In this document: positions 13,035 to 28,450 of the stretch, piece by piece
How the letters are laid out: the number at the start of each line of letters is the position of its first letter
How positions within the stretch are numbered: the first letter of the stretch is position 1
Origin: a virus
Reading direction: 5' to 3' (one strand)
Length of the DNA: 28,450 nt
IMG/VR virus record: IMGVR_UViG_3300022929_000145
Span: 1 to 28,450 of that record
Position numbers and translations under genes: made by a program
The notes under the pieces: generated by a model
The model's database searches: none
The model's input: the letters and a program-made list of their open reading frames with translations, nothing else
What the model was told of the DNA's origin: nothing

Positions 13035-13685
13035 ATGGAAGATCGTATTAACGTTAGTCAATTACCACCCAAAGATCCGCCTGTAACTGAAAAAGGATTT
13101 ACAATAAGAGAGGTCGTTCCAGAGTTTGAAGTAAAACCCATCGTGGGAACGGAAAAGGTAAAAGATCCTTTTACGGGCGATCAAAAGAAACAAGCTGGCT
13201 TTGCTGTTCGTATGGAAAATGCCGTAGCACAGCTTGAAGACTTAGAAAATTCTGGTTTTAATCCGGTAAATGTTTATGACATGGTTGTGAGTAATTTACC
13301 CATAGTGCCTGATGCAATAGAGCGTTATCTTAACTCACCTAAATTCAAACAATACGAAAGAGCAAAAATAGATTTTTCCACAGCACAACTGAGACAAGAA
13401 ACGGGTGCCGTGATTAATGAAAGTGAAATCGATTGGATCGACAGAACTTATTTTCCACAGTTTGGCGATGATCCTGAGACTTTGATGAACAAAAGGCAAG
13501 CCAGAAGAGACGCCCTGGCTGCGATGCGTGGCCAAGCGGGTGAGGCTTACACCAGGACTAAAAAAATAGTACAAGCAAGTGGCGGCACACCTACAAGCGA
13601 AGAAGCTCTTGAAGAGTTAAGAAAAAGAGCAAAAACAGATCCAGAGCTGGCTCGTAAGTTAGAAGAAAGAGGACTATTAGAGTAG
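13035..13685 (+). CDS. Probable internal virion protein carrying one ETGAVI motif (216 aa)
   Basis: The ATG is preceded by TAGGAGAAAGTA, a good Shine-Dalgarno. Residues 70-120 are helical. LRQETGAVINESEIDWIDRTYFP (about 119-141) follows, and the C-terminus is basic/acidic helical. The ETGAVIN core at residue 122 is the same as in the 616-residue protein encoded at 8232. Similar E(S/T)GA(A/V)I-type motifs are, from memory, common near the C-terminus of phage internal proteins. Function is not known. The gene is in line with the ejection-type cluster. Confidence 0.6.
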   Translation: MEDRINVSQLPPKDPPVTEKGFTIREVVPEFEVKPIVGTEKVKDPFTGDQKKQAGFAVRMENAVAQLEDLENSGFNPVNVYDMVVSNLPIVPDAIERYLNSPKFKQYERAKIDFSTAQLRQETGAVINESEIDWIDRTYFPQFGDDPETLMNKRQARRDALAAMRGQAGEAYTRTKKIVQASGGTPTSEEALEELRKRAKTDPELARKLEERGLLE

Positions 13686-13692
13686 AAAAACC

Positions 13693-16101
13693 ATGAAGGA
13701 CGGATTTGAAAATTTAGAAAACGATATTTTATTTTCCATGTTACCTGGAAGCCAGGAACAAGGATCTTATGAAGATGATCTTTTAGACAAAATAGCGCAA
13801 GAAAGGTTATTAGCATCCATAGACACAAAAACAGGCGCACCAGCCAACGTAAGAGCCTCGGTAAGCGCCGCTCAGTCGCAAGATGATAGATTAGCTACAC
13901 TTAGGAACTTTTACCCTGATGCGGTTCCTGTGCAAGCCATAGATCCGGAGAATGGGGTAGCTAAATTTGGTTTCGGTAACTTTGTATATACTAATCCAGA
14001 GACAGGACAGCTTACTTTGTTTGATGAAGATTTAAGATTGTTTGGTGTTCCGGTACCAGGACTAAGAGATTTTGTAGATGTAGGTCCAGAGATAGCAGAA
14101 ACAGCCGGAGCTATAGGTGGTGCTATAGGAGGCGCTACGATAGGAGCACCAGTTGGTCCTGGCGGTATAGCTGCTGGTGTCGTTGCGGGTGAAGGCTTGG
14201 GTAGCGCAGCTGCTAGAGAAGCATACATAGGCATATTAGATTTTTTTGGAGAAACCGAAGACAACAGATCTGGAGCTGACAGGCTTTTTGATTTTGGCAC
14301 AACAGCCGGGATAAATGCTGTAGGCGGTCCTGTGGTTAACAAAGTTGTCCAGGGCGTTAAATATGTAGCCGGACAACCTATAAGATACGCCATGGGCGGG
14401 ATGTCTAAAGACTCTGCAACTGCTTTGAAAAATATGGAGACTGTAGGCATTACGGATCCCTCAGCTGGCATGGTAACCGCTAATCCAACTGTCAATTTGA
14501 TGGAACAAGCATTAGCAGCAGCACCGACATCTACTAAGATCATGCACGAAAATGCTGCTCAAGTAATTAACCAAATGGATAATTTCTCCAGGGAATTAGC
14601 CGAAAAATATGGTGGGGTAAGAACGACATCCGAGGCCGCAGAAGAACTAATGGATGGCGCCAGAAAAGCCAGAGTAAGGTATGACAATAAAGTTGATTCG
14701 TTATACAGAGAAGTAGACGAGTTCATGCCAGATAATTTAGTTTCTAATGCAGATAATACTGTTGAGTTTATAAATAAATATCTTGCTCAAAGTACGACTG
14801 CTACAGGTGCAGACACAGTAAATCCGGCATTAAGAATGGCAGAAAAAGTTGTAAAAGATGCGAAGGATGGTGTGTTGACTTACAACCAGCTAAAATCTTT
14901 TAGGTCAAGCCTTATGCACAATTTGAGATCTGCTCAAGCTGCTGGTGCAAAACTAGACGCTCCAGGGCAAAAAATCAGTGAGCTTGTCGGGTATGTCACA
15001 AAGGATATTGATGCTCTGGTTGCAAGATCTGATAATCCGATGGCGCTAGAAAAGTACAAAGCTGCAAATGCTTTTGTAAAAGCTAACACTGGCAAAGCCG
15101 GTGGATTAACTTATCTAAATAACGTAATAAACAAAGGTGCGGCCAGATCTACAGATGCTTTGAATTATGTTTTAAGAGGCGCTAAAGATGGTGGCGAAGA
15201 TCTTTTGAAACTTAGACAGATGATGAATCCAGATGAATATAATGTTATATCTGGTTATATGTTAGGCCGTATGGGTTTGCCTACACCTGGCATGGCCGGT
15301 GTTGCTGAGTTGGGTGAATCTGCAATAAAAGAAGGATCTGAGTACATTGCAGAGCAAGGTTTTTCTCCCAGGACTTTCATAACGAATTGGAACAGATTAA
15401 GTAAAGAGGCAAAAGAAGCCTTATTTAAAAACACAGAGCATGCTGATTTAGTACCAGAGCTAGATGCTTTGGTAACAACCATAGATCGAATCGGTAAATC
15501 TGCCGATCAGATGGCGAATCCTAGCGGTACTGCTAGAGTTATGGGTGCTTTAGGTATATTCGGTATAGGTGCGGCTGACGTCGGTTTAGGATCTGTAGTT
15601 GGATCCGAAGGTTTTGAATATGGATTGAGTGCTTTAGTTGCTCCTTACATGTCGGCTAATCTTTTAACCAACAAACAATTTGTGAAGTGGCTGACCGAGG
15701 GTGTAGAAAAAGCTGCTTATGATCCTCAAAGCTGGGGCCAACATGTAAGACGTTTGTACCAAATCTATGAACTGAATCCTGATATACGAGAAGAGGTAAG
15801 AGCTATAACAGAAGGCTTAACCGGAGATACTATTGAAAGGATCCCTTCACAAAACTCAAAGTCAACACCCTCAGTTACTACTCCAGCAACAAATGAACAG
15901 GCTTTTCGTGAAGTAACCAATCCAGAGATTGCGGGTAAATTGTTGCCTGATACAAACCTGGCTAGTCAAATAGACAGTTTTACATTACCTTCCGTAACAG
16001 AAAGCACAATGGAGCTGGCTATGTCGCCAACTGTAGTGCCAGATGAAAGGGATCGTGAGATCGCAATGCGTGAAGCGGGTGGTATCGGATCTTTAGTTTA
16101 G
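13693..16101 (+). CDS. Large probable DNA-ejection protein (802 aa)
   Basis: The N-terminal region (1-130) is acidic. Residues about 134-180 form a glycine-zipper hydrophobic segment (AGAIGGAIGGATIGAPVGPGG), which could insert into a membrane. The long remainder is mainly alpha-helical, with VRYDNKVDSLYREVDEFMP (about 327-345) and several regular Lys/Glu/Leu helices. The layout, one short membrane-active segment plus a long helical body and last in the structural operon, is like the large ejection proteins of P22 (gp16) and T7. I see no transglycosylase motif. Starts eight bases after the previous gene. Confidence 0.55.
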   Translation: MKDGFENLENDILFSMLPGSQEQGSYEDDLLDKIAQERLLASIDTKTGAPANVRASVSAAQSQDDRLATLRNFYPDAVPVQAIDPENGVAKFGFGNFVYTNPETGQLTLFDEDLRLFGVPVPGLRDFVDVGPEIAETAGAIGGAIGGATIGAPVGPGGIAAGVVAGEGLGSAAAREAYIGILDFFGETEDNRSGADRLFDFGTTAGINAVGGPVVNKVVQGVKYVAGQPIRYAMGGMSKDSATALKNMETVGITDPSAGMVTANPTVNLMEQALAAAPTSTKIMHENAAQVINQMDNFSRELAEKYGGVRTTSEAAEELMDGARKARVRYDNKVDSLYREVDEFMPDNLVSNADNTVEFINKYLAQSTTATGADTVNPALRMAEKVVKDAKDGVLTYNQLKSFRSSLMHNLRSAQAAGAKLDAPGQKISELVGYVTKDIDALVARSDNPMALEKYKAANAFVKANTGKAGGLTYLNNVINKGAARSTDALNYVLRGAKDGGEDLLKLRQMMNPDEYNVISGYMLGRMGLPTPGMAGVAELGESAIKEGSEYIAEQGFSPRTFITNWNRLSKEAKEALFKNTEHADLVPELDALVTTIDRIGKSADQMANPSGTARVMGALGIFGIGAADVGLGSVVGSEGFEYGLSALVAPYMSANLLTNKQFVKWLTEGVEKAAYDPQSWGQHVRRLYQIYELNPDIREEVRAITEGLTGDTIERIPSQNSKSTPSVTTPATNEQAFREVTNPEIAGKLLPDTNLASQIDSFTLPSVTESTMELAMSPTVVPDERDREIAMREAGGIGSLV

Positions 16102-16845: not shown

Positions 16846-16851
16846 TTGGCC

Positions 16852-17565
16852 ATGTATAAGGTCAAAAATTATTTACTCAGCATGCAATCGCACTGGATGA
16901 TTAATCATACGACCTACCAGGCTGTCCAGGACTCGGTTCCAGAGATTATCAAATACAAAGCCAGCGAGGGTGTGGATGATATGGGGAAAACTCCAATACA
17001 TGATGTGATTAAAAGGATCCACCCGGACATCTATCGAGTGCCGTTGTTTCGTAGAAAGTTTTGCAAGATGTTGATGAAAGAGATCGAACACATGCAGAAA
17101 GAAGTCGGGTTTGAACCTAACTCCGATGAAGACGAGCTCAGACAAATCCCTGAGATTGTTTTGCGTGAACACGCGCCAGAGCTCTATCGCAGTATGTGGT
17201 TCGTGGTCCAGACTGTACTCAATCCGATCTTCAATGCGGTGTGGCAACGTGATTGTAAGGATCCGGCATCGATACAGATAGCCAACTACAACCTCAAGGA
17301 TAAGCAACAAGGATCCTGGCACCACGACGACAGCGCAGATATATCTGTTGTGGTTCCTTTGAATACTGGCAAGTATGAAGGCGGTGGAACCGCGTTTCAT
17401 AACTATGGAGAGATAGCGCCATTGCCCACAGGCCATGCACTGTTTTTCCCCAGCTTTACCAATCTACACAAAGGCTTACCGGTCCAATCTGGAGATCGTT
17501 ACCTTCTGGTTTTCTGGCTAAATGACGCCAAAAGAATAGTCGATTTATACCAGGAAATAGTCTAA
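16852..17565 (+). CDS. 2-oxoglutarate/Fe(II)-dependent oxygenase (first of three)
   Basis: The protein has 237 residues from the ATG at 16852 (an in-frame TTG at 16846 overlaps the promoter). The C-terminal double-stranded beta-helix shows W156-H157-H158-D159 (HxD iron ligands), GGGTAFHNYG, LFFPS, the distal His206 in NLHKG and Arg216 in GDRYLLVFWL for 2-oxoglutarate binding. This is the complete facial triad of prolyl/lysyl-hydroxylase-like enzymes, common in marine phages. The N-terminal 130 residues are helical and do not match a domain I know. Its substrate is unknown and could be protein or nucleic acid. It begins the plus-strand unit that leads to the small-gene array, although a second promoter lies between. 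Confidence 0.85.
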   Translation: MYKVKNYLLSMQSHWMINHTTYQAVQDSVPEIIKYKASEGVDDMGKTPIHDVIKRIHPDIYRVPLFRRKFCKMLMKEIEHMQKEVGFEPNSDEDELRQIPEIVLREHAPELYRSMWFVVQTVLNPIFNAVWQRDCKDPASIQIANYNLKDKQQGSWHHDDSADISVVVPLNTGKYEGGGTAFHNYGEIAPLPTGHALFFPSFTNLHKGLPVQSGDRYLLVFWLNDAKRIVDLYQEIV

Positions 17566-19692: not shown

Positions 19693-20469
19693 TTAATATA
19701 GATCTTTCAATCCGATCTCTTGCTCACCTTCCAGGTTGTATGGTTTGTAATCGTTATTAGCTACGCACTCCTGGATCAGAGCCAACGCTTGCTCGTTCCT
19801 GGCCTGGGCATACTTCAATGCCTCCGGGTGCATGGAATAAACCACATAAGGAAAAGGATCTTGTTTTTCCTGGGCAAGAAACTTAAACCCTTTGGCCGGT
19901 AGATCTAGTGCCCTGGCCGCGTCAACATAAAGCGCAGCTTGCATGTGATAGTTGAAAGCGTTTATAGCTTGTTTAAACCCTCTAGGAGACGCGTCACGGC
20001 ACGTTTTAAGATCCCAGACATACTCACCATCATACCAATCAAAACGGGCCTTAAACGGCGCTCCATGCCATTCAAATACCAGGGTAAGTTCTGCCTTATC
20101 GGTTTCACCTGGTATGTAATCTTTTACGAGCTCTCGGCGTTTCATGCAAAGATCGTATAGATCCTGGGTGATGGGCGTTCTATTGCCCACAGACGCCAGG
20201 AAATCCTCGTAGTCGGCTTTTCCGGCCTTGGTCCTTCTGTCTACCTGGGGTTGAATAACGAACTCCTCGTCGAACTTATGGTGCTCCAGGAAGACTGTGT
20301 GTTGCACTCTTCCTTCCAGGAGAGCGGGTGTTTGTTCCAGTGCCTTTTTGTTTTTCCATGTATATGGGCATTTTATGACTGAGGTAAGATCGTGAGATCT
20401 ATGAGCTGGGATCTCAGCGTATTCTTCATAGCTTAGATCTTCATATATGCCTACGTTAAATTCTTTCAT
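19693..20469 (-). CDS. RecE-like exonuclease, PD-(D/E)XK family (PF12684-type)
   Basis: This 258-residue protein has the layout of the phage exodeoxyribonuclease VIII-type nuclease. It has LEGRVQHTVFLE with His57, KAELTL with Glu127, KARFDWY with Asp144, WDLKT with Asp153 and Lys155, and NYHMQAALY with Gln177. All catalytic positions of the PD-(D/E)XK core are present. It would resect double-stranded DNA for single-strand annealing recombination. It is the last gene of a minus-strand operon; its ATG overlaps the oxygenase gene by 14 bases, and AAAGGAGAT precedes it. A RecT- or Erf-like annealing protein is not seen, unless the SSB-like gene fills that role. Confidence 0.8.
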   Translation of the reverse strand: MKEFNVGIYEDLSYEEYAEIPAHRSHDLTSVIKCPYTWKNKKALEQTPALLEGRVQHTVFLEHHKFDEEFVIQPQVDRRTKAGKADYEDFLASVGNRTPITQDLYDLCMKRRELVKDYIPGETDKAELTLVFEWHGAPFKARFDWYDGEYVWDLKTCRDASPRGFKQAINAFNYHMQAALYVDAARALDLPAKGFKFLAQEKQDPFPYVVYSMHPEALKYAQARNEQALALIQECVANNDYKPYNLEGEQEIGLKDLY

Positions 20470-21169
20470 TCTCTATCTCCTTTATTTCTTCTTCGGTTAC
20501 ATCAAAACAATTCAAGTTACCGGCTACAGTTCTGCGCTCACCCTCACCGAAAAAGGGATAGACAGTGTGTTGCATCCAAGATGGGAACAACAATAGTTTG
20601 CCTGGCTCCGGCATAATATATCTGGATTGCGACGGCCTGAGTCGCTCCGGATCTGAAACCTGGTTTAAACCATAAGTAAAATTTATATAGCCATCGATAG
20701 CTCCAGAGCTATTGTAGAGATCTACGCGCTCGTTACTGGATTGCATTATTTGTTCTGGAACCATGGTCCAGGTGGTAAATGATATGCCCATAGGGGTAGC
20801 GGTTAAATGATCGTGTATGGGGTTGTAATCGCCCTCAAAGCTATGGACTGACCACAACTTATCCATAGATATTTTCTTAGCTCTAAGAGGAGATTTAGTT
20901 TGCTCTACGAAGTGTCTAAGATAAGCTGCGGCCAAACTCTCAACAATCCTAACAAAAGGAGTTAGTAACACATCTTCATAATCCATTTTAAGTTGCTCGC
21001 CTTGGTGTATTTGTCCAACTAGCGTATTGCCAGCAGACTCGCGCAACTTATCCTGTCTTAATGTGTCCAGGTAATCATTGAGAGTTGTCACTACCTGATC
21101 GGGTAATCTGTGTTGCAGCATCAATGCAGCTGGCAACGTGTAAAGCTCGTATTCTATTTGGTCACTCAT
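20456..21169 (-). CDS. 2OG/Fe(II) oxygenase of the HxH type (second of three)
   Basis: This 237-residue protein resembles the putative 2OG-Fe(II) oxygenases remembered as TIGR02466/PF13759. It has WSVHSFEGDYNPIHDHLT with His119 and His121, YIMPEPGKLLLFPSWMQHTVYPF with distal His201, and GERRTVAGNL with Arg212/213. The facial ligands and arginine are in the correct order. The N-terminal 70 residues are alpha-helical. It is encoded in an operon with SSB-like, DUF6378-like and exonuclease genes, so a role linked to DNA or to the replication machinery is plausible. Family members have no established substrate to my knowledge. Confidence 0.75.
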   Translation of the reverse strand: MSDQIEYELYTLPAALMLQHRLPDQVVTTLNDYLDTLRQDKLRESAGNTLVGQIHQGEQLKMDYEDVLLTPFVRIVESLAAAYLRHFVEQTKSPLRAKKISMDKLWSVHSFEGDYNPIHDHLTATPMGISFTTWTMVPEQIMQSSNERVDLYNSSGAIDGYINFTYGLNQVSDPERLRPSQSRYIMPEPGKLLLFPSWMQHTVYPFFGEGERRTVAGNLNCFDVTEEEIKEIENERI

Positions 21170-21563: not shown

Positions 21564-22301
21564 TTAAAAGGGTATGTCGTCGTCTTTAAGACCTTGTGAT
21601 CCCTCTTCGGATATTGTTTCTAAGTTGTCGCTTGCCACTGACGCGCTGACTGTTTGTGTCGGAGCTGTGTTGCTATCGTTAGCTGCAAGATACTCAAAAC
21701 TTTCTTCTATTTCTTTTTGTTGCCAGGCCGGTAACTCTTCAAACACATCGCACATAAGTTTGCTCTCTGGTGAAGAGTTGCCATTGAAGTCGTTGCAATA
21801 AAGCTCCAGGTCAAACGCACGTTGTTCGTTCTTGGTTGCTACCTTTTGTGTACCGCCAGCTGGTTCACGCAGAGCTGCGATCTTGGGATTGCCTCCTTCA
21901 AACTCAGCTGTCTTTTGTGTCAGCTCTATCTCTATCTTGGCTGTATGTCCTAGAAGTCCAACCAGGTCAAACCCGGCCAACTCTTCATCGGTTAAACTTT
22001 TACCGCGCCAGGATTCGATGTCTAATCTCAAGGCTGCTTTCTCGTGTAAAGATAAAGTGTACTTCTTAGAAACTGCAAATGGCCTGTCGTCTTCCATAAC
22101 AACTTTGTTGTCTTCTGGATCTATGGCTTTGGTTATTTCAAATGCCAGGACAACCTTATGTTGTTTCTTGGGTTCCTCGTTACCAAACTTATATTCCTTG
22201 CTGCCTATGTCAACAATCGAATACAGCGTACCCTCGTACATACCTTTTTCTAGCTTTGGAAAATCGTCGTTCCCACCTTTATCAGTTATTGTTAAACTCA
22301 T
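21564..22301 (-). CDS. Single-stranded DNA-binding-like protein with acidic tail
   Basis: This 245-residue protein has an N-terminal beta-rich half (EGTLYSIVDIGSKEYKFG, KKQHKVVLAFEITKAI, VSKKYTLSLHEKAALRL) consistent with an OB-type fold. It then has a disordered Ser/Thr/Asn-rich region and ends in LKDDDIPF. A terminal DDDIPF is the signature by which SSB proteins recruit partners. I therefore call it a phage SSB-like protein; it may also assist annealing with the exonuclease of the operon. The ATG is preceded by AGGAG, and a -10 box lies about 25 bases upstream. Confidence 0.75.
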   Translation of the reverse strand: MSLTITDKGGNDDFPKLEKGMYEGTLYSIVDIGSKEYKFGNEEPKKQHKVVLAFEITKAIDPEDNKVVMEDDRPFAVSKKYTLSLHEKAALRLDIESWRGKSLTDEELAGFDLVGLLGHTAKIEIELTQKTAEFEGGNPKIAALREPAGGTQKVATKNEQRAFDLELYCNDFNGNSSPESKLMCDVFEELPAWQQKEIEESFEYLAANDSNTAPTQTVSASVASDNLETISEEGSQGLKDDDIPF

Positions 22302-22319
22302 ATTTATCTCCTAATGTGT

Positions 22320-22348
22320 TTGCAAATTATAATAAACTTGGATAATAT
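22320..22348 (+). promoter_or_regulatory. Divergent overlapping promoters between replication operons
   Basis: On the plus strand TTGCAA (22320-22325) and TAATAT (22343-22348) are 17 bases apart, pointing to the primase-helicase gene. On the minus strand TATAAT (22331 to 22326) lies within that spacer and points to the SSB-like operon, with a weak -35. The two promoters would exclude each other. The plus-strand version shares GATAATAT and the TTGCA(A/C)-N17-TAATAT arrangement with the promoter at 17585. Confidence 0.55.
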
Positions 22349-22400
22349 CTTACAGACTTTGGCATTACAAAGCAAACACTAAAAAATTAAGGAATGATTG

Positions 22401-24563
22401 ATGTCATTAAAAATTACAGGACCGGCCAAGAATAAAAGCAAACCCTTCACCAAAGATTATATTTCTCAGTTCCGGGATTTCCTGGCCAGCAATGGTTATG
22501 AACCGGATCCGAAAAAAGGTTTGGTAGTCGATGGCTCAGTCGGTAGAGCGTACATCAACATCGGCAATCAAAGGAAGCTCGTGGGTTGGTATCAAGCGTG
22601 GCTAGATCAATCTTCCCCTTTTGGACGCATCGGCGATTATCGTTACAGTGCGGACCAACCCACAGCGACCTGGAAGCCAGAGAACAGTGGCCGTTACAAA
22701 TTAACCAAAGAACAAAAAGCAGAGATTGAGGATCTTCGACGCAAGGCTGAGGTCAAAAGCCAGGAGAAGTACACACAGGCCGCCCAGAGATCTCAGTCTA
22801 TATGGGATCAATGCGAAGAAGTAGAGAAGCATCCGTACCTGGAGCGCAAGCAAGTCTTGTCGTATGGTTTACGCAAAGACAAACACGATAACTTAGTCAT
22901 ACCACTTAAGGATGGCCAGGGCACTATCGTTGGCCTACAGTACATTAGCGACGAAGGCGAAAAGCGTTTCCTCACTGGTTCTAAAAAAAGCGGTAGCTTT
23001 TTCCTTCTCGGTAGAGAGATCTTCAATACAACAGACACGCTTAACTATGCCGAGGGGTATGCCACCGCGGCCTCTCTATACGCTGACCGCTCCCAGCCGG
23101 TGGTCGTCGCGTTCGATGCTTACAACTTAATTAAGGTAGCGGAGGTGATGTACCAATACTTCCCTAACCACAAACACATATTCGTCGCAGACAATGACGA
23201 TAGTAATACCGGAGAGATAGAGGCCAAGAAAGCTGCATCGTTTATACAGAAGAGTGGCGGGTACGCCGAGGTCCAGATGCCAGAGACTAAGGGAGACTAC
23301 AACGACCATGCCACAGAGGAAGCGCTGGAAGGCGAGGTGATCCTCCAGAATATTGAGGTACCGGTTGAGTATGACTTTCATCGCAGTGCCAACGGCCGCT
23401 TCTTAAATACCAAAGACAACATCGGTGGCGTACTGAAAGTGCATGATGTGGATGTCCGGTATAACGTGATTAAGAAGAAGATGGAGATAGACATACCCAA
23501 CATGGAGTTCATCGCGGACATGCACGAGGAAGCCAGTCTTATAGAGATAGAGGACCGCTGTATCAACATGGGGATCCCGCACACTAAAGTGCGAGACTAT
23601 CTCAAGGTTCTCGCCAGAGAATACAATCCTGTTAAGGAGTGGATCGATAGTGAGCCATGGGACGGAACAGACAGACTACAGACATTTATGGATTCGCTGG
23701 TTACAGAAGAGTCCGCGCAGCTGAAAGAAATGCTACTCAAGAAGTGGCTGATCTCTTGTGTCGCCGCTGCCCACGAAGTCAATGGCGTTGAGCTCGAAGG
23801 GATCTTGGTCCTACAAGGCGCACAAGGACTCGGTAAAACCTTATGGTTCAAGCGCCTGTGTGACTACAATAAAGGCTGGCTGTTAGAAGGTGCAACCTTG
23901 AATCCGTCGGATAAGGACAGCGTAAAACGGGCGGTAAGCCATTGGATTGTGGAGTTAGGCGAGATTGAGTCCACGTTCAAGAAGTCGGACATTGACCAGT
24001 TGAAAGCGTTTGTGACAGCGAAGACGGACGAACTGAGGCTGCCATATGACCGAGCCTTCACGACCTATCAGCGACGTACGGCTTTCTACGCCAGTGTTAA
24101 TGCGCGAGAGTTTTTGACGGACACGTCGGGTAATCGTAGATTCTGGGTTCTCGCGGTGAGAGACATCAATGTTAATCATGGGGTGAACATGCAACAGCTA
24201 TGGGCCCAGGTTAGAGACACGATGTATGTGCCTGGCCAGAAGAACTGGTTTCTATCACCGGACGAGCGTGAGTTGTTGAACGAGAGTAACGAGGTATATC
24301 GAACACAATCCAGCGTGGAGGATCTTATCCTGGAGCACGTCAACTTTGGTAGTGAGTACGCGAAGCCGGTGCAAATGACTAAGCTGCTACGAGATCTTGG
24401 TATCAAGGCACCGAGGATGCCTGACTTCAAAGAAGCGAGTCGTGTCCTTCACGAGCGTGGCATCGAACCCCGTAGGAGTAACGGCAAGAAGATCTATGAC
24501 CTGGACTACACACCGGTCGAGGATGATTCGATCGGTTCGATCGGAAGTAACTGGAATGATTAG
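22401..24563 (+). CDS. Toprim primase-VapE helicase fusion
   Basis: This is a 720-residue bifunctional replication protein (ATG at 22401 with AAGGA seven bases upstream; an in-frame TTG at 22398 is less likely). The N-terminal half has a Toprim domain: LNYAEGYATAASLY with Glu218, then FVADNDD with Asp264/266/267. The C-terminal half has the VapE-type ATPase: EWIDSEPWDGTDRLQTFM (about 413-430), Walker A GAQGLGKT (473-480), Walker B WIVELGE (515-521) and SGNRRFW (576-582) as likely Arg finger. It should lay primers and unwind the phage DNA. It has no zinc ribbon at the N-terminus. Its GC content is higher than that of the late genes. Confidence 0.85.
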   Translation: MSLKITGPAKNKSKPFTKDYISQFRDFLASNGYEPDPKKGLVVDGSVGRAYINIGNQRKLVGWYQAWLDQSSPFGRIGDYRYSADQPTATWKPENSGRYKLTKEQKAEIEDLRRKAEVKSQEKYTQAAQRSQSIWDQCEEVEKHPYLERKQVLSYGLRKDKHDNLVIPLKDGQGTIVGLQYISDEGEKRFLTGSKKSGSFFLLGREIFNTTDTLNYAEGYATAASLYADRSQPVVVAFDAYNLIKVAEVMYQYFPNHKHIFVADNDDSNTGEIEAKKAASFIQKSGGYAEVQMPETKGDYNDHATEEALEGEVILQNIEVPVEYDFHRSANGRFLNTKDNIGGVLKVHDVDVRYNVIKKKMEIDIPNMEFIADMHEEASLIEIEDRCINMGIPHTKVRDYLKVLAREYNPVKEWIDSEPWDGTDRLQTFMDSLVTEESAQLKEMLLKKWLISCVAAAHEVNGVELEGILVLQGAQGLGKTLWFKRLCDYNKGWLLEGATLNPSDKDSVKRAVSHWIVELGEIESTFKKSDIDQLKAFVTAKTDELRLPYDRAFTTYQRRTAFYASVNAREFLTDTSGNRRFWVLAVRDINVNHGVNMQQLWAQVRDTMYVPGQKNWFLSPDERELLNESNEVYRTQSSVEDLILEHVNFGSEYAKPVQMTKLLRDLGIKAPRMPDFKEASRVLHERGIEPRRSNGKKIYDLDYTPVEDDSIGSIGSNWND

Positions 24564-24708
24564 CGCCGCCGTGCGTGAGTGGATCTCGGTGTGGTTTTTT
24601 GTGTTGGCCATGAGTGTGTTGTTGTTCTTCGTGGCGGTGATTATGCCCTTTCTGGCCATCGCTAAGATGGTAGATGAATTGTTAAATTGGAGGTCATGGC
24701 GCTTGTGA
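24556..24708 (+). CDS. 50-residue single-span membrane protein overlapping the primase stop
   Basis: The ATG at 24556 overlaps the TAG of the primase-helicase gene (ATGATTAG). A GGAAG sequence lies about eight bases before it. The protein is MISAAVREWISVWFFVLAMS followed by VLLFFVAVIMPFLAIAKMVD, one hydrophobic span of about 25 residues, with a charged C-terminus (DELLNWRSWRL). It is a candidate for a holin, spanin component or membrane anchor. No lysin gene is next to it, so no assignment is made. Confidence 0.5.
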   Translation: MISAAVREWISVWFFVLAMSVLLFFVAVIMPFLAIAKMVDELLNWRSWRL

Positions 24709-25020
24709 ATGGAGTGTATGGTGCACTGATTAGGGTGGCATGGCGTTGAGGGTGTGTGTGTTGAGGTTTGCATGAATGTGTATATGTATGTGTAAGTTTA
24801 GAATAGGAGGGTATAGCAAAGGGTATAGTAAGAATTTACTGTGCACTTAATGAAAGCCTTTATTTACTTGGTTATTAGATATATAAGGGTATAGTGTATA
24901 GTAAATAGAAGATATAGTTAGTTATAGCCTGTTAGCGTGTATTCTTATAGCGTTCACGTGTAATAGTTTGAAGTGGCTATACACTACCCTCTGTACACTG
25001 TTTATAATTAGGATCTGATT
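24709..25020 (+). other. Noncoding region with iterated and inverted repeats
   Basis: These 312 bases hold no ORF with support. AGGGTATAG occurs at 24808-24816, 24820-24828 and 24886-24894, and GTATAGTAA at 24823-24831 and 24897-24905. AGGGTATAGTGTATAG (24886-24901) recurs as its reverse complement, minus two bases, at 24977-24990. A GT-rich alternating tract spans about 24748-24797. A replication origin, an operator cluster or a packaging-related element would fit; sequence alone cannot choose. Confidence 0.55.
25003..25008 (+). promoter_or_regulatory. -10 box for the terminase gene
   Basis: TATAAT lies 12 bases before the ATG at 25021 and about seven bases before the expected transcript start. 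AGGA at 25010-25013 is the likely Shine-Dalgarno. No -35 match is found at 16-18 bases, and the inverted AGGGTA repeat (24977-24990) covers that position, suggesting an activator- or repressor-controlled promoter. Confidence 0.4.
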
Positions 25021-25530
25021 ATGGGAAGACCAAAGAAGCCAAAAGAGAAAATAGTAGATACCCCGGTACAGTTCGATCGGGATGAAGAACATGGCCTGAC
25101 AGAAATGCAGACCAGCTTTGTCTGGCACTATACCGAAGGTGCATGCGGTATGACCGAAGCAGCCAGGAGAGCTGGGTATGAATTTCCAAGCCAGGCCGCC
25201 AACAAGTTACTGAATGGTAAGGACTATCCGAATGTGGTTAAGGCCATCCGGATCAAACAAGACGAGCTGGCAGAGAAGTATGCGATCACTCCGCAGAAGA
25301 CCGGGACGATGTTGTGGAAGGTCATGGAGAAAGCGTACGAGAACGGACAGTTCAATGCTGCGGTTTCTGCGATCAAGGAGCTCAACCAGCTTGGCGGATT
25401 GTCAATCAATAGATCCCAGAATATCAATATCAATGCCAACCTGGAGAAGATGTCCAGGGATGATATTAAGGAGAGATTAGGCCAACTATTAGGTGCTAAC
25501 ACTTCTGACTACTCACCAAAGGACAAGTAG
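25021..25530 (+). CDS. Terminase small subunit-like protein
   Basis: This 169-residue protein begins with a basic arm (MGRPKKPKEK). LTEMQTSFVWHYTEGACGMTEAARRAGYEF (about 26-55) follows, a helix-turn-helix typical of small terminases, then AANKLLNGKDYPNVVKAI and AEKYAITPQKTGTMLWKVMEKAYENGQFNAAVSAIKELNQLGG (about 79-125). This is the arrangement in Terminase_2-type small subunits, which recognise the packaging site and load the large subunit. The large subunit does not follow here. A terminator is found 60 bases after the stop. Confidence 0.75.
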   Translation: MGRPKKPKEKIVDTPVQFDRDEEHGLTEMQTSFVWHYTEGACGMTEAARRAGYEFPSQAANKLLNGKDYPNVVKAIRIKQDELAEKYAITPQKTGTMLWKVMEKAYENGQFNAAVSAIKELNQLGGLSINRSQNININANLEKMSRDDIKERLGQLLGANTSDYSPKDK

Positions 25531-25590
25531 TGCTGGCAACTTTGTTATGGCCCTTTCTCGGCCAGGCGCCAAATATTTTGATAAAAAAAT

Positions 25591-25628
25591 AAAAAAGCTC
25601 GTAAGTTATTGATTTTACAGGCTTTTTT
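25591..25628 (+). terminator. Rho-independent terminator, probably bidirectional
   Basis: AAAAAAGC (25591-25598) pairs with GCTTTTTT (25621-25628), and GTAA with TTAC inside, leaving a loop of about ten bases. A T tract on one strand and an A tract on the other would let it act in both directions. It ends the terminase small subunit transcript. Confidence 0.65.
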
Positions 25629-25653
25629 GCTTGTATTTACATGTGTATCTTTC

Positions 25654-25681
25654 TGCAACTATGTGCAACTTGTGAGCACAA
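25654..25681. promoter_or_regulatory. Two adjoining operator-like dyads
   Basis: TGCAACTATGTGCAACT (25654-25670) is the reverse complement of 17 bases at 17583-17599. Overlapping it, TTGTGAGCACAA (25670-25681) is a perfect inverted repeat with a two-base spacer. They are in the noncoding stretch after the terminator. The rest of 25531-25874 has a pyrimidine-rich tract (25719-25750), GGGGC/GCCCC at 25711 and 25746, GCCGGC at 25766-25771 and no supported gene. Confidence 0.5.
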
Positions 25682-25874
25682 CAGTAACAGGTAACAAATT
25701 GGAGTCCCTTGGGGCCGGTTTTTTCCCTGGTTTTTCTTTTTTTTTGCCCCGCACACCCCTAGATGGCCGGCGGCGTATGCAGATGTGTATATAACTGGGT
25801 TTTACACATAAGATCACCAAAAAAAATGATTCCTTACGATTGTAATTTTGTGCAAATTTTGAGACACTCTTGCA

Positions 25875-26294
25875 ATGCCTATTAATTCCAGAAACAAAGG
25901 GGCCAAGTTTGAGCGAGACATAGCAAAGATCCTTAATGGTTTTTTCCTGGACAACGGCATAGATTACGAAACCAAACGCAACCTGGACCAATACCAACAA
26001 AAGGATCTGTGTGACCTGGACATACCCTTTCATTCTGTCGAATGTAAACACTACAAAGAAGGCGATTGGCTAAAGTCCGCCTGGTGGAACCAGGTATGCG
26101 AGAGCGCTGGCCCGAACATTCCGGTTCTTATCTTTAAATTCAACCGAAAACCCATCCGAGTCTGCGTACCGCTATATGCAATCAACCTGGACTGGCCCAG
26201 GGAAAACGACAAGATCTGCATAATGTCCATGGAGGACTGGTTAGATACCCTCAAAAAAAACTGGACAACCTATGAACAGCGACATTCTTCCTAA
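25875..26294 (+). CDS. PD-(D/E)XK nuclease, Holliday-junction-resolvase-like
   Basis: This 139-residue protein has NKGAKFERDIAKIL with Glu13, then YETKRNLDQYQQKDLCDLDI with Asp44 and Asp47, and FHSVECKHYKEGDWLKSAWWNQV with Glu56 and Lys58 in an ECK motif. This order (E, then D, then ExK) is that of the small PD-(D/E)XK resolvases used by phages to resolve branched DNA before packaging. The start is preceded by no obvious Shine-Dalgarno. The end overlaps the oxygenase gene by 23 bases. Confidence 0.75.
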   Translation: MPINSRNKGAKFERDIAKILNGFFLDNGIDYETKRNLDQYQQKDLCDLDIPFHSVECKHYKEGDWLKSAWWNQVCESAGPNIPVLIFKFNRKPIRVCVPLYAINLDWPRENDKICIMSMEDWLDTLKKNWTTYEQRHSS

Positions 26295-26826
26295 GCACGG
26301 CGTTACCGGCTTACTGGTTTCTGAGGAGGAAACCGATTTATTCCTGGATTACCTGGTAGAAACAGATCCAGAACCCGCAAAAGTACACACCCAGGGCGAG
26401 GAGAAGGAGGAAAAAGGGATCCGGGATGCTGAGATCCGTTATATCGACGAAAAACAGACGCGTTTGTATAGGATCCTTAATAAAATCGCTTTTTCAGCCA
26501 ATAAATACTTCAAATACGACATAAATGGGATCGAAAAGGCCCAAATAATCAGCTATAAAGCGCCATCTAAGGGTTATGAGTACCACATGGACATAGGACC
26601 AGAGGGCACAGCTGCAACGCGCAAAATAAGCATGAGCTTGCTTCTAAACGAAGATTATGAGGGGGGCGAGATATGCTTCCGATCCAGCGAGTATGAAAGA
26701 TGCACGAGGCCAGAAAAGGGTGAAGCGGTGATATTCAGCTCATTCTTGAGTCACAAGGTCAAGCCGATTACGAAGGGTGAAAGATTTGTCGTCGTTGCCT
26801 GGTTTACCGGGCCCCCTTTCCGTTGA
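26272..26826 (+). CDS. 2OG/Fe(II) oxygenase, PKHD-type (third of three)
   Basis: This 184-residue protein has YEYHMDIGP with His105 and Asp107, SLLLNEDYEGGEICF, GEAVIFSSFLSHKVKPI with distal His161, and GERFVVVAWF with Arg171. This is the full facial triad and 2-oxoglutarate site of prolyl-hydroxylase-like PKHD enzymes. It differs from the two other oxygenases in length and N-terminus. The start ATG lies inside the nuclease gene without a clear Shine-Dalgarno. The stop TGA overlaps the extended -10 of the next gene. The substrate is not known. Confidence 0.85.
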   Translation: MNSDILPKHGVTGLLVSEEETDLFLDYLVETDPEPAKVHTQGEEKEEKGIRDAEIRYIDEKQTRLYRILNKIAFSANKYFKYDINGIEKAQIISYKAPSKGYEYHMDIGPEGTAATRKISMSLLLNEDYEGGEICFRSSEYERCTRPEKGEAVIFSSFLSHKVKPITKGERFVVVAWFTGPPFR

Positions 26827-26833
26827 TATACTG
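26824..26833 (+). promoter_or_regulatory. Extended -10 directly before a start codon
   Basis: TGATATACTG is identical to the sequence at 16836-16845. TATACT (26827-26832) ends six bases before the ATG at 26839, so transcription should start at the start codon. A weak -35 match (TTTACC, 26803-26808) is 18 bases upstream. The promoter overlaps the stop codon of the oxygenase gene. Confidence 0.5.
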
Positions 26834-26838
26834 CTCGT

Positions 26839-28450
26839 ATGCGAGCTGACGATGTAAATGTTTTTGAGGAACCTTCTGCCCTGGAGTCTTTCCAGTCAAA
26901 GCTAGCTGCCGTACCTTTGAGACAACCAGACGTAGGATCTATAGAACCTACGGAGCAAACCTCAGCTCAAAAAAGGGTGCAAGGATTAGCAAGCCTATTA
27001 CAAAGGGTTGGTTATGGCGGTGGGGATCCGAGAAGATCCTTTCAAATGTCTCAGAAACTTTTACGAACCTTCGATCCCTACCAACAAGGAGGCATAGGCG
27101 AGTTTCTACCTGGTTTTTCTTATCAGTTAGCTCAAGAACGTGGTGATAAATTTGGTCAGTTACTTTCAACCATAGATCTATTACCAGGAGCAGCAATCGG
27201 AACCGCCGCTTTGAAAGCGGGAAAAGCTGGCAAAGGGATTGAAACTTTAGCAAAATCACAAGCTATGACTGAGCCAAAAGACATGGTTTTTTTACACAAC
27301 ACTTCACCAGACAAACTTGCTTTGTATGACAACATTGGTGGATTACCTTCTCCAAGCATAGCTGTAACAAAAGCAGACACACCGCATGAAGGTTACGGAA
27401 AAATTACTCTAGTTGGTAAACCCGAAAAGTTTGATCCCGCTGTAGATCAACGCAATAAGGTTTACTCAGCAGACGCTTACACACCCAGAGGACCACGGCC
27501 TTTAAGATTAGCAAAACCTGGCGCGGCGAAACAAATAGAAAAAGATTACAAAGAAATAAACAGAAGGTATGGCGACAGATATGAATTTTCTCAGTCAGGC
27601 TTAGACTCTGCAAGTTTTGCTTTAGAAAACTTAGATCCAAAAAATCTTTTTTATCCAGAAAATAGATTAGATGAACTTAATCGCTTTTTTGATGGGCCTC
27701 TTGCAGTAAGAAAATACATGAGTGAAAAAAGGATCAGTGAAAAAGCTCTTGATAATTATGGCCTTTTTAAAGATTTTAAACAGCGACAGCGCTTTCAAGA
27801 TTGGGCAAAACAAGAAAAAGATAAATACTTATCCCAAGATGCTGTGTTCCAATATTTTGATGAAGCAGAAGAAACAATGAAAACTGTGCCTTATAATACA
27901 GAAAATGTTGTAGCAAACATGATTGCAGATACACAAAGAGGCGGGGAGGGAATACCTGGCTCTGCATCTGACGCTTATCTTAGAGCTCTTTCATCAAAAG
28001 AATTTCCTAGCTTGCAAGACATCAAAGCAGATAAATCAAGAATTACAAGTGAATTTACATACGGGGATAATTACTTAGACGACGACATTGAAAATTTACT
28101 TGAGCCACTAGGTTTAGACTTGCAAGTAGACACTTTACAAACATTTATCAAAAATTTTGTAAAAACCAAACTTGAACGAGGTGAAAAATTAAAAACTTCT
28201 GTGGATGAAGCAGTAAATTCGCTAGTCAAAAATTCTAATTTAAAAATTAAAGACGCAAAAAAACTTAAAGACGAAATGTTTGAAGTGTTTGAAGATAATG
28301 CAAATAGGGCAGTTAGTTACTTTGAAGCAAAACCCACCAGAGCTGTAGACTTTGACGAGTTTGCTGGGGCCATAGTGCCAGCCAACACAAAAAAAACTAC
28401 CATAGATCTTTTGAAAAAAAGAGGCCTAAAAGTAATTAAAGAAAAGGAAG
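26839..28450 (+). CDS. Large protein, 3' truncated; polyvalent-protein-like segment
   Basis: The frame from the ATG at 26839 is open for 537 codons to the right edge, so the protein is cut off here. Residues about 40-145 are helical with a hydrophobic LLPGAAIGTAALKAG. Residues about 149-220 read VFLHNTSPDKLALYDNIGG, then LPSPSIAVTKAD, GYGKITLVG and YSADAYTPRGPRP. I recall similar GGLPxPS...GxGxIxL segments in large multi-domain proteins carried by phages and plasmids (polyvalent proteins), which may be delivered into the host. The rest is Lys/Glu/Asp-rich and helical. Base composition drops to strongly AT-rich after about 27500. The function is unknown. Confidence 0.6.
   Translation, partial: MRADDVNVFEEPSALESFQSKLAAVPLRQPDVGSIEPTEQTSAQKRVQGLASLLQRVGYGGGDPRRSFQMSQKLLRTFDPYQQGGIGEFLPGFSYQLAQERGDKFGQLLSTIDLLPGAAIGTAALKAGKAGKGIETLAKSQAMTEPKDMVFLHNTSPDKLALYDNIGGLPSPSIAVTKADTPHEGYGKITLVGKPEKFDPAVDQRNKVYSADAYTPRGPRPLRLAKPGAAKQIEKDYKEINRRYGDRYEFSQSGLDSASFALENLDPKNLFYPENRLDELNRFFDGPLAVRKYMSEKRISEKALDNYGLFKDFKQRQRFQDWAKQEKDKYLSQDAVFQYFDEAEETMKTVPYNTENVVANMIADTQRGGEGIPGSASDAYLRALSSKEFPSLQDIKADKSRITSEFTYGDNYLDDDIENLLEPLGLDLQVDTLQTFIKNFVKTKLERGEKLKTSVDEAVNSLVKNSNLKIKDAKKLKDEMFEVFEDNANRAVSYFEAKPTRAVDFDEFAGAIVPANTKKTTIDLLKKRGLKVIKEKE

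Follow-up and report, generated by a model that had tools for sequence, protein, structure and literature searches.

A conserved repeat array tied to a small terminase gene in a viral contig: a candidate TerS recognition site

Gene context and layout of the repeat element

The window, i.e. the whole stretch of 28,450 bases analysed here, is an IMG/VR record classed as linear. Its gene order runs from structural genes through small genes and a minus-strand block (encoding a DUF3799 exonuclease, a 2OG oxygenase, a DUF6378 protein and a protein of unknown function) to a Toprim/VapE primase–helicase, the repeat element considered here, a gene resembling that of the small terminase subunit (TerS), a RusA-like gene and another 2OG oxygenase, after which a last open reading frame runs off the window end. 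Three separate 2OG-Fe(II) oxygenase genes are present in the window (16846–17565, 20456–21169 and 26272–26826). The helicase part of the primase–helicase matches the solved VapE-like structure 7pds (8e-24). An earlier note, made from the sequence alone, had placed a small terminase gene just downstream of the repeats, and the gene found there bears this out. Besides its match to phrog_51 (Table 1), the product scores 25.8 bits against Pfam Terminase_2, 0.3 bit below the cut-off of 26.1, and its profile matches the DNA-binding domain of the SF6 small terminase (4zc3, 3.5e-4; 2cmp, 4.0e-4; 3zqp, 4.8e-4), which together suggest that the neighbour of the element is a genuine TerS. The predicted N-terminal domain superposes on 4zc3 with a TM-score of 0.85 of the target and 1.5 Å, at a Foldseek E of 3.9 and a mean pLDDT of 67.

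Seven 9-mers of the form AGKGYAYAG lie within 24808–24999 (192 bp), four on the plus and three on the minus strand, between the primase–helicase gene and the TerS-like gene. Three direct copies and a 14-base inverted copy had been claimed for this segment; AGGGTATAG does occur exactly three times, always on the plus strand (R1, R2 and R4), and CTATACACTACCCT is found exactly at 24977–24990, being the reverse complement of the 16-mer AGGGTATAGTGTATAG (24886–24901) minus two bases (TA). The earlier observation is thus confirmed, and the repeats are more numerous than described, since R3, R5, R6 and R7 are further copies of the degenerate 9-mer. The GT-rich tract said to precede the repeats is present as well, and the description of the segment as noncoding holds for about 24.71–25.02 kb, save for short open reading frames that overlap there.

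Table 1. Features of the repeat element and its two flanking genes
Feature	Position	Strand	Remarks
Toprim/VapE primase–helicase	22398–24563	+	upstream neighbour of the element; candidate initiator in the origin model
R1, AGGGTATAG	24808–24816	+	exact copy
R2, AGGGTATAG	24820–24828	+	12 bp after R1
R3, inverted AGTGCACAG	24839–24847	-	one set of relatives has a third direct AAGGGTATG instead (alignment)
Spacer AAAGCCTTTATTTACTTGGTTAT	24853–24875		partly conserved (alignment, 52 distinct elements)
R4, AGGGTATAG	24886–24894	+	exact copy
R5, AGTGTATAG	24893–24901	+	overlaps R4
AT-rich spacer, 33% GC	24902–24976		contains conserved TATTCTTAT box at 24940
R6, inverted AGTGTATAG	24977–24985	-	part of the inverted 14-mer
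R7, inverted AGTGTACAG	24991–24999	-	14 bp from R6; 21 bp separate its end from the TerS start codon
TerS-like small terminase subunit, 169 aa	25021–25530	+	phrog_51, 2.4e-7

Beyond the element, the 28,450 bp contain a single further AGKGYAYAG site (26603). In 300 Markov-1 simulations of the window, sites numbered 1.7 in total on average, with at most two in any 200 bp; this consensus was picked after seeing the data, and the relatives offer a fairer test. Sixteen contigs were compared, amounting to 498,511 bases with the window and without G003, a contig ending before TerS; 77 of their sites are located no further than 430 bp upstream of TerS, and the other 18 lie outside these regions. A motif-free scan, in which each 300-bp scan window was scored by its best 9-mer (one mismatch allowed), ranks the element as the densest place in the 28 kb, its value being reached by 0.18% of scan windows. 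The rank of the element is weaker in the four long relatives scanned, where its value is reached by 0.6% (G001), 1.1% (G004), 6% (G005) and 15% (G002) of scan windows.

Conservation and linkage to TerS

A TerS search of viral contigs returned 280 relatives, the best 80 of which (84–100% identity) were used; together with the window, 80 of 81 upstream regions were long enough, and these yielded 52 distinct elements. Conservation in relatives was the test that the earlier note had set for itself, and both the cluster and its spacing are kept: at least three AGKGYAYAG sites occur in 50 of the 52 distinct elements and at least four in 45, the direct pair spaced 12–13 bp is found in 42 and the inverted pair spaced 14 bp in 32. 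At the lower end, the L014/L020/L021/L022-type elements and that of L031 have one exact 9-mer each, while those of L056, L061, L064, L066 and L077 have three sites each. In the alignment of the distinct elements the spacers drift more than the repeats, with the exception of short boxes. Such conservation of the repeats speaks for a functional site. The literature searched contained no description of them, which does not in itself establish their absence from print. Comparison of the DNA of 22300–26900 with a phage collection gave no similarity, Rfam gave no match for 24300–25900 at E values up to 1, and a TerS-based search of bacterial genomes for prophage copies gave 33 pattern matches and no relatives.

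Linkage was assessed on 78 distinct primase–TerS intervals from 123 locus entries, some of which were the same contig fetched twice, with the best R6–R7 pattern match taken as the position of the element. The last repeat lies 18–214 bp before TerS in all 78 intervals, at 18–33 bp in 41 of them and at no more than 214 bp in the rest, and the wider gaps hold small open reading frames in the sequences read. The distance from the primase gene to the element, on the other hand, ranges from about 153 to 2170 bp; it exceeds 600 bp, often with a gene in between, in 38 of the 78 intervals, although the two adjoin in the window. In G002, for example, a DNA methylase gene separates them. The narrow distance on one side and the variable one on the other indicate that the element is tied more closely to TerS than to the primase, and its place directly upstream of TerS throughout the 78 intervals is that of a pac- or cosB-type site. 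A scan independent of TerS, with the pattern AGGGTATAG-N3-AGGGTATAG, returned 82 stretches, five of which (on four contigs) were rejected as matches inside coding sequence, e.g. KGIGKGIG repeats; a TerS match accompanies 75 of the remaining 77, and the other two (L106 and L126) are on contigs that end before TerS. The divergence of the element appears to track that of TerS only slightly better than that of the primase, with Spearman coefficients of 0.48 and 0.44, respectively, for 72 sequences, and of 0.61 and 0.41 for the 48 sequences that also have the RusA gene.

These distances bear on the main rival explanation, a replication origin, which we consider less likely. The repeats would then be iterons for the C-terminal domain of the adjacent primase–helicase, and melting would occur in the AT-rich spacer that separates R5 from R6. 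In the iteron origins of P4 and the SaPIs, repeats and an AT-rich stretch lie beside a VapE/primase gene; similarly, the element is on the 3′ side of a primase–helicase whose helicase part is VapE-like, and its repeats flank a spacer of low GC content. Unlike in those origins, however, it is the distance to TerS, not to the primase, that the window-type repeats keep. Helicase and primase initiators have been reported to drive the replication of the P4 and SaPI satellites (PMC7145576). In three of five phages with 31–36% identical primases (ep3, Persinger and KA2-1; all five compared as parts of 27–32 kb), the densest or joint densest scan windows are TTGGTCACC/GTGACCACC-type arrays. These have 6–10 copies and occupy gaps between annotated genes about 2–3 kb downstream of the primase (L189, 13151; L191, 23951; L192, 24351), and they are candidate origins or late-gene operators. 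Directly flanking the homologous primase, by contrast, no dense array was seen in any of the five, the best count of 3–4 being reached by at least 14% of scan windows. The proposed check by GC skew lent an origin no support either: the cumulative skew does not turn at the element in any of six contigs, or in the pelagiphage HTVC023P, this being a weak test that is blurred by the location of most genes on one strand.

The position of the last repeat would also suit an operator or promoter that controls the TerS operon, is recognised by some other phage regulator or a host protein and plays no part in packaging. We assign this alternative a low probability. The sites contain TATA and look by eye like −10 boxes, yet a simple scan, restricted to the sigma-70 type, detected no promoter-like pair in the element and two in the region, against a shuffle mean of 3.1. 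The element has been exchanged independently of its neighbours (see below), as an operator might be, but no regulator was found that varies with it, and other genes do not carry the motif, as judged from the few sites outside the TerS-upstream regions of the 16 contigs. A TerS operator would in any case be compatible with a packaging site, and the same site may serve both functions.

Arrays in isolate phages and genome ends

Among isolates, the sole TerS match was to Pelagibacter phage HTVC027P (34%), and the large terminase (TerL) of G002 is 58–62% identical to those of 023Pt_psg01, DSL-LC04, HTVC027P and HTVC023P. The HTVC023P group (TerS 25–28% identical to that of the window in six aligned members; TerL 58% identical to that of G002) has PolA-type replication genes and is devoid of the replication module of the window. 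Of 80 loci fetched, 37 were examined, and each of them has a different repeat cluster, mostly of the CTAGGAA type, immediately upstream of TerS. In this cluster, two direct copies are followed by at least three more after a spacer of about 50 bp, in which TCTAGA is conserved in many loci. The likeness to the window is in the arrangement, with a direct pair, a spacer and further copies directly before a homologous TerS, whereas the sequence and spacing of the repeats are unrelated and the replication genes differ. The best 9-mer count upstream of TerS is 4–8 (mean 6.2) as compared with a mean of 3.1 in other scan windows of the same loci, the former being the best of up to three windows and the latter single ones; in eight of the 37 loci (L203, L206, L218, L222, L224, L228, L230 and L263) another window is equal or higher. 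In HTVC023P itself (60.9 kb), five of 11 CTAGGAA sites are directly upstream of TerS, and the scan window with the densest repeats in the first 30 kb is located there too. Its primase, helicase and polymerase genes are some 5–10 kb away from this array, which speaks against the interpretation of the window element as an origin.

The HTVC027P group, with a TerS closer to that of the window (37–40% identity, 13 aligned), presents a different picture. No dense array was found in the 500 bp before TerS in the 31 loci examined of 80 fetched, where the best count was 3–5 (mean 3.4 versus 3.1 elsewhere). CAAGCNN arrays are located about 0.6–2.6 kb upstream of TerS in 29 of 32 HTVC027P-type sequences (L273–L352), HTVC027P included; they are tandem heptads with 6–11 copies of the best 9-mer. 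Of the other isolates, which were compared as parts of 20–40 kb, 023Pt_psg01 has a GA-rich repeat tract roughly 0.4–0.6 kb upstream of TerS, and DSL-LC04 has no outstanding repeats there. By groups, then, two seem to favour a link with TerS and one tells against a strict position. Term searches in PMC9599517 (‘intergenic’, ‘small subunit’, ‘origin of replication’) and PMC12753301 (‘terminase’, ‘repeat’, ‘origin’) found no mention of these terms. Open reading frames at about 7.4–10.6 kb of G001 (L152–L154) resemble, by eye, curli-type repeat proteins, and curli genes have been reported in HTVC023P-type phages (PMC9599517).

Contig ends, a poor stand-in for the ends of virion DNA, do not pile up at the element among 77 contigs, and in the window group two of 54 true left ends are no more than 410 bp from TerS, against an expectation of 4.4. 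In the HTVC023P group (L193–L272), 11 of 24 true left ends lie at most 410 bp upstream of TerS, over the CTAGGAA array (p 1.4e-4, binomial, for a limit of 410 bp chosen after seeing the list for this group). This clustering could reflect either packaging ends or local variability. The ends of G002 (56.8 kb; 56,791 bp; L155–L157) overlap by 404 bp at 97.3%, so that the map closes as a circle of about 56.4 kb; it is the only circularly closing contig among 12 of at least 28 kb tested (G004 without its last 783 bases). G002 also encodes a resolvase-type recombinase (13551–14336). The lack of piled-up contig ends leans towards headful (pac) packaging rather than fixed (cos) ends.

A cos site with fixed cohesive ends is accordingly the alternative that we regard as highly improbable. 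In phage lambda, cosB is located before the TerS gene; the element resembles it in that short repeats of either orientation flank a spacer shortly before TerS. Lambda cosB has a length of 120 bp and contains three TerS sites, of which R2 is inverted, with an IHF site between R3 and R2 (PMC4669245). On the model of lambda cosN–cosB, the repeats of the element would be R sites, and the nicking site would be a dyad, TAAGA(A)..(T)TCTTA, which many relatives carry in the AT-rich spacer about 40 bp before R6. This dyad is, however, absent from the window (24940 region), L001 and L012, and was dropped as a part of the mechanism because the window does without it. A different dyad, GCTCAA-6-TTGAGC, occupies the same place in L031. 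In addition, G002 closes on itself through another place, the window element bears no sign of a fixed end, and its TerS is of a different family from that of lambda (PMC4669245).

A putative TerS recognition site and its exchange

The sites are demonstrated here, as are their conservation and close linkage to TerS; from this starting point, the reading that we favour, with about even confidence, is that the element is a TerS recognition site (pac or cosB-like), which perhaps also regulates TerS. Among the three functions that the earlier note had put forward, recognition for packaging fits best, on account of the tight TerS linkage and the analogous array of the HTVC023P group, where this replication module is absent; an operator is compatible with such a site, and an origin at this place found no support in GC skew or in the homologous primases. 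Several TerS subunits would bind the 9-mers R1–R7 on both sides of the AT-rich spacer and fold about 190 bp of DNA into a nucleoprotein complex serving as a mark of phage DNA. This complex would bring in the large terminase, upon which packaging would start, with cleavage probably occurring nearby. Since R6 and R7 lie just before the TerS start codon, binding of TerS at these repeats may also lower its own expression, as reported for SPP1.

The pac site of SPP1 spans the start of the small terminase gene and comprises three sets of direct repeats (boxA, boxB and boxC) that reach into the gene, boxA being absent from SF6 (PMC4737164). The element shares with the SPP1/SF6 site the presence of repeats in the region running up to the TerS gene, a homologous TerS DNA-binding domain and, in one relative, a circular map. 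It differs in that a single degenerate 9-mer occurs seven times, in either orientation and at fixed spacing, and always upstream of TerS, and in that TerL is not adjacent to TerS. The latter feature, as seen in G002, where TerL is at 29186, about 20 kb from TerS, would count against a packaging site, as would the contig ends and the HTVC027P group with no array at TerS. Neighbouring terminase genes are not universal among phages (PMC9611059). Furthermore, conserved 9-mers sit badly with the weak DNA binding without sequence specificity that has been reported for TerS of pac phages (PMC9611059).

The pair L012 and L022 also bears on specificity. The two contigs are 95.7% identical over one 6.9-kb alignment, and only 46–66% identical in the three 100-bp steps covering the element, so that about 300 bp before TerS, i.e. 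the element, have been replaced. Their TerS proteins differ by two residues, both outside the HTH. This swap of the element with a near-constant TerS argues against a strictly sequence-specific TerS site; the contigs differ in other genes too, and an unseen cognate protein is therefore possible. A pattern scan for a donor of the L022-type element gave only four contigs, all already known. Concerted changes of the repeats have also taken place in some lineages of the HTVC023P group (CTAAGAA in L255, CTGGGAA in L261), and inspection by eye of 48 distinct TerS sequences of this group gave no clear change in the recognition helix that tracks the repeat type.

On the basis of the L012–L022 swap and the concerted changes in the HTVC023P group, it is tempting to speculate, at a probability that we hold to be low, that marine podovirus-like phages carry an exchangeable packaging-identity cassette before TerS, with TerS and its neighbours kept while the array is swapped or rewritten. 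If so, such exchanges would alter which DNA is packaged, and they could allow a phage to evade satellites or competing phages that copy the site.

The literature searched yielded no mapped packaging site for phages of this kind. Were the element a TerS recognition site, the occurrence of a conserved, TerS-linked array in two related phage groups would provide a sequence signature for such sites. The natural set of variants may also help to establish how strictly TerS reads DNA, a question that is unsettled for pac phages (PMC9611059).
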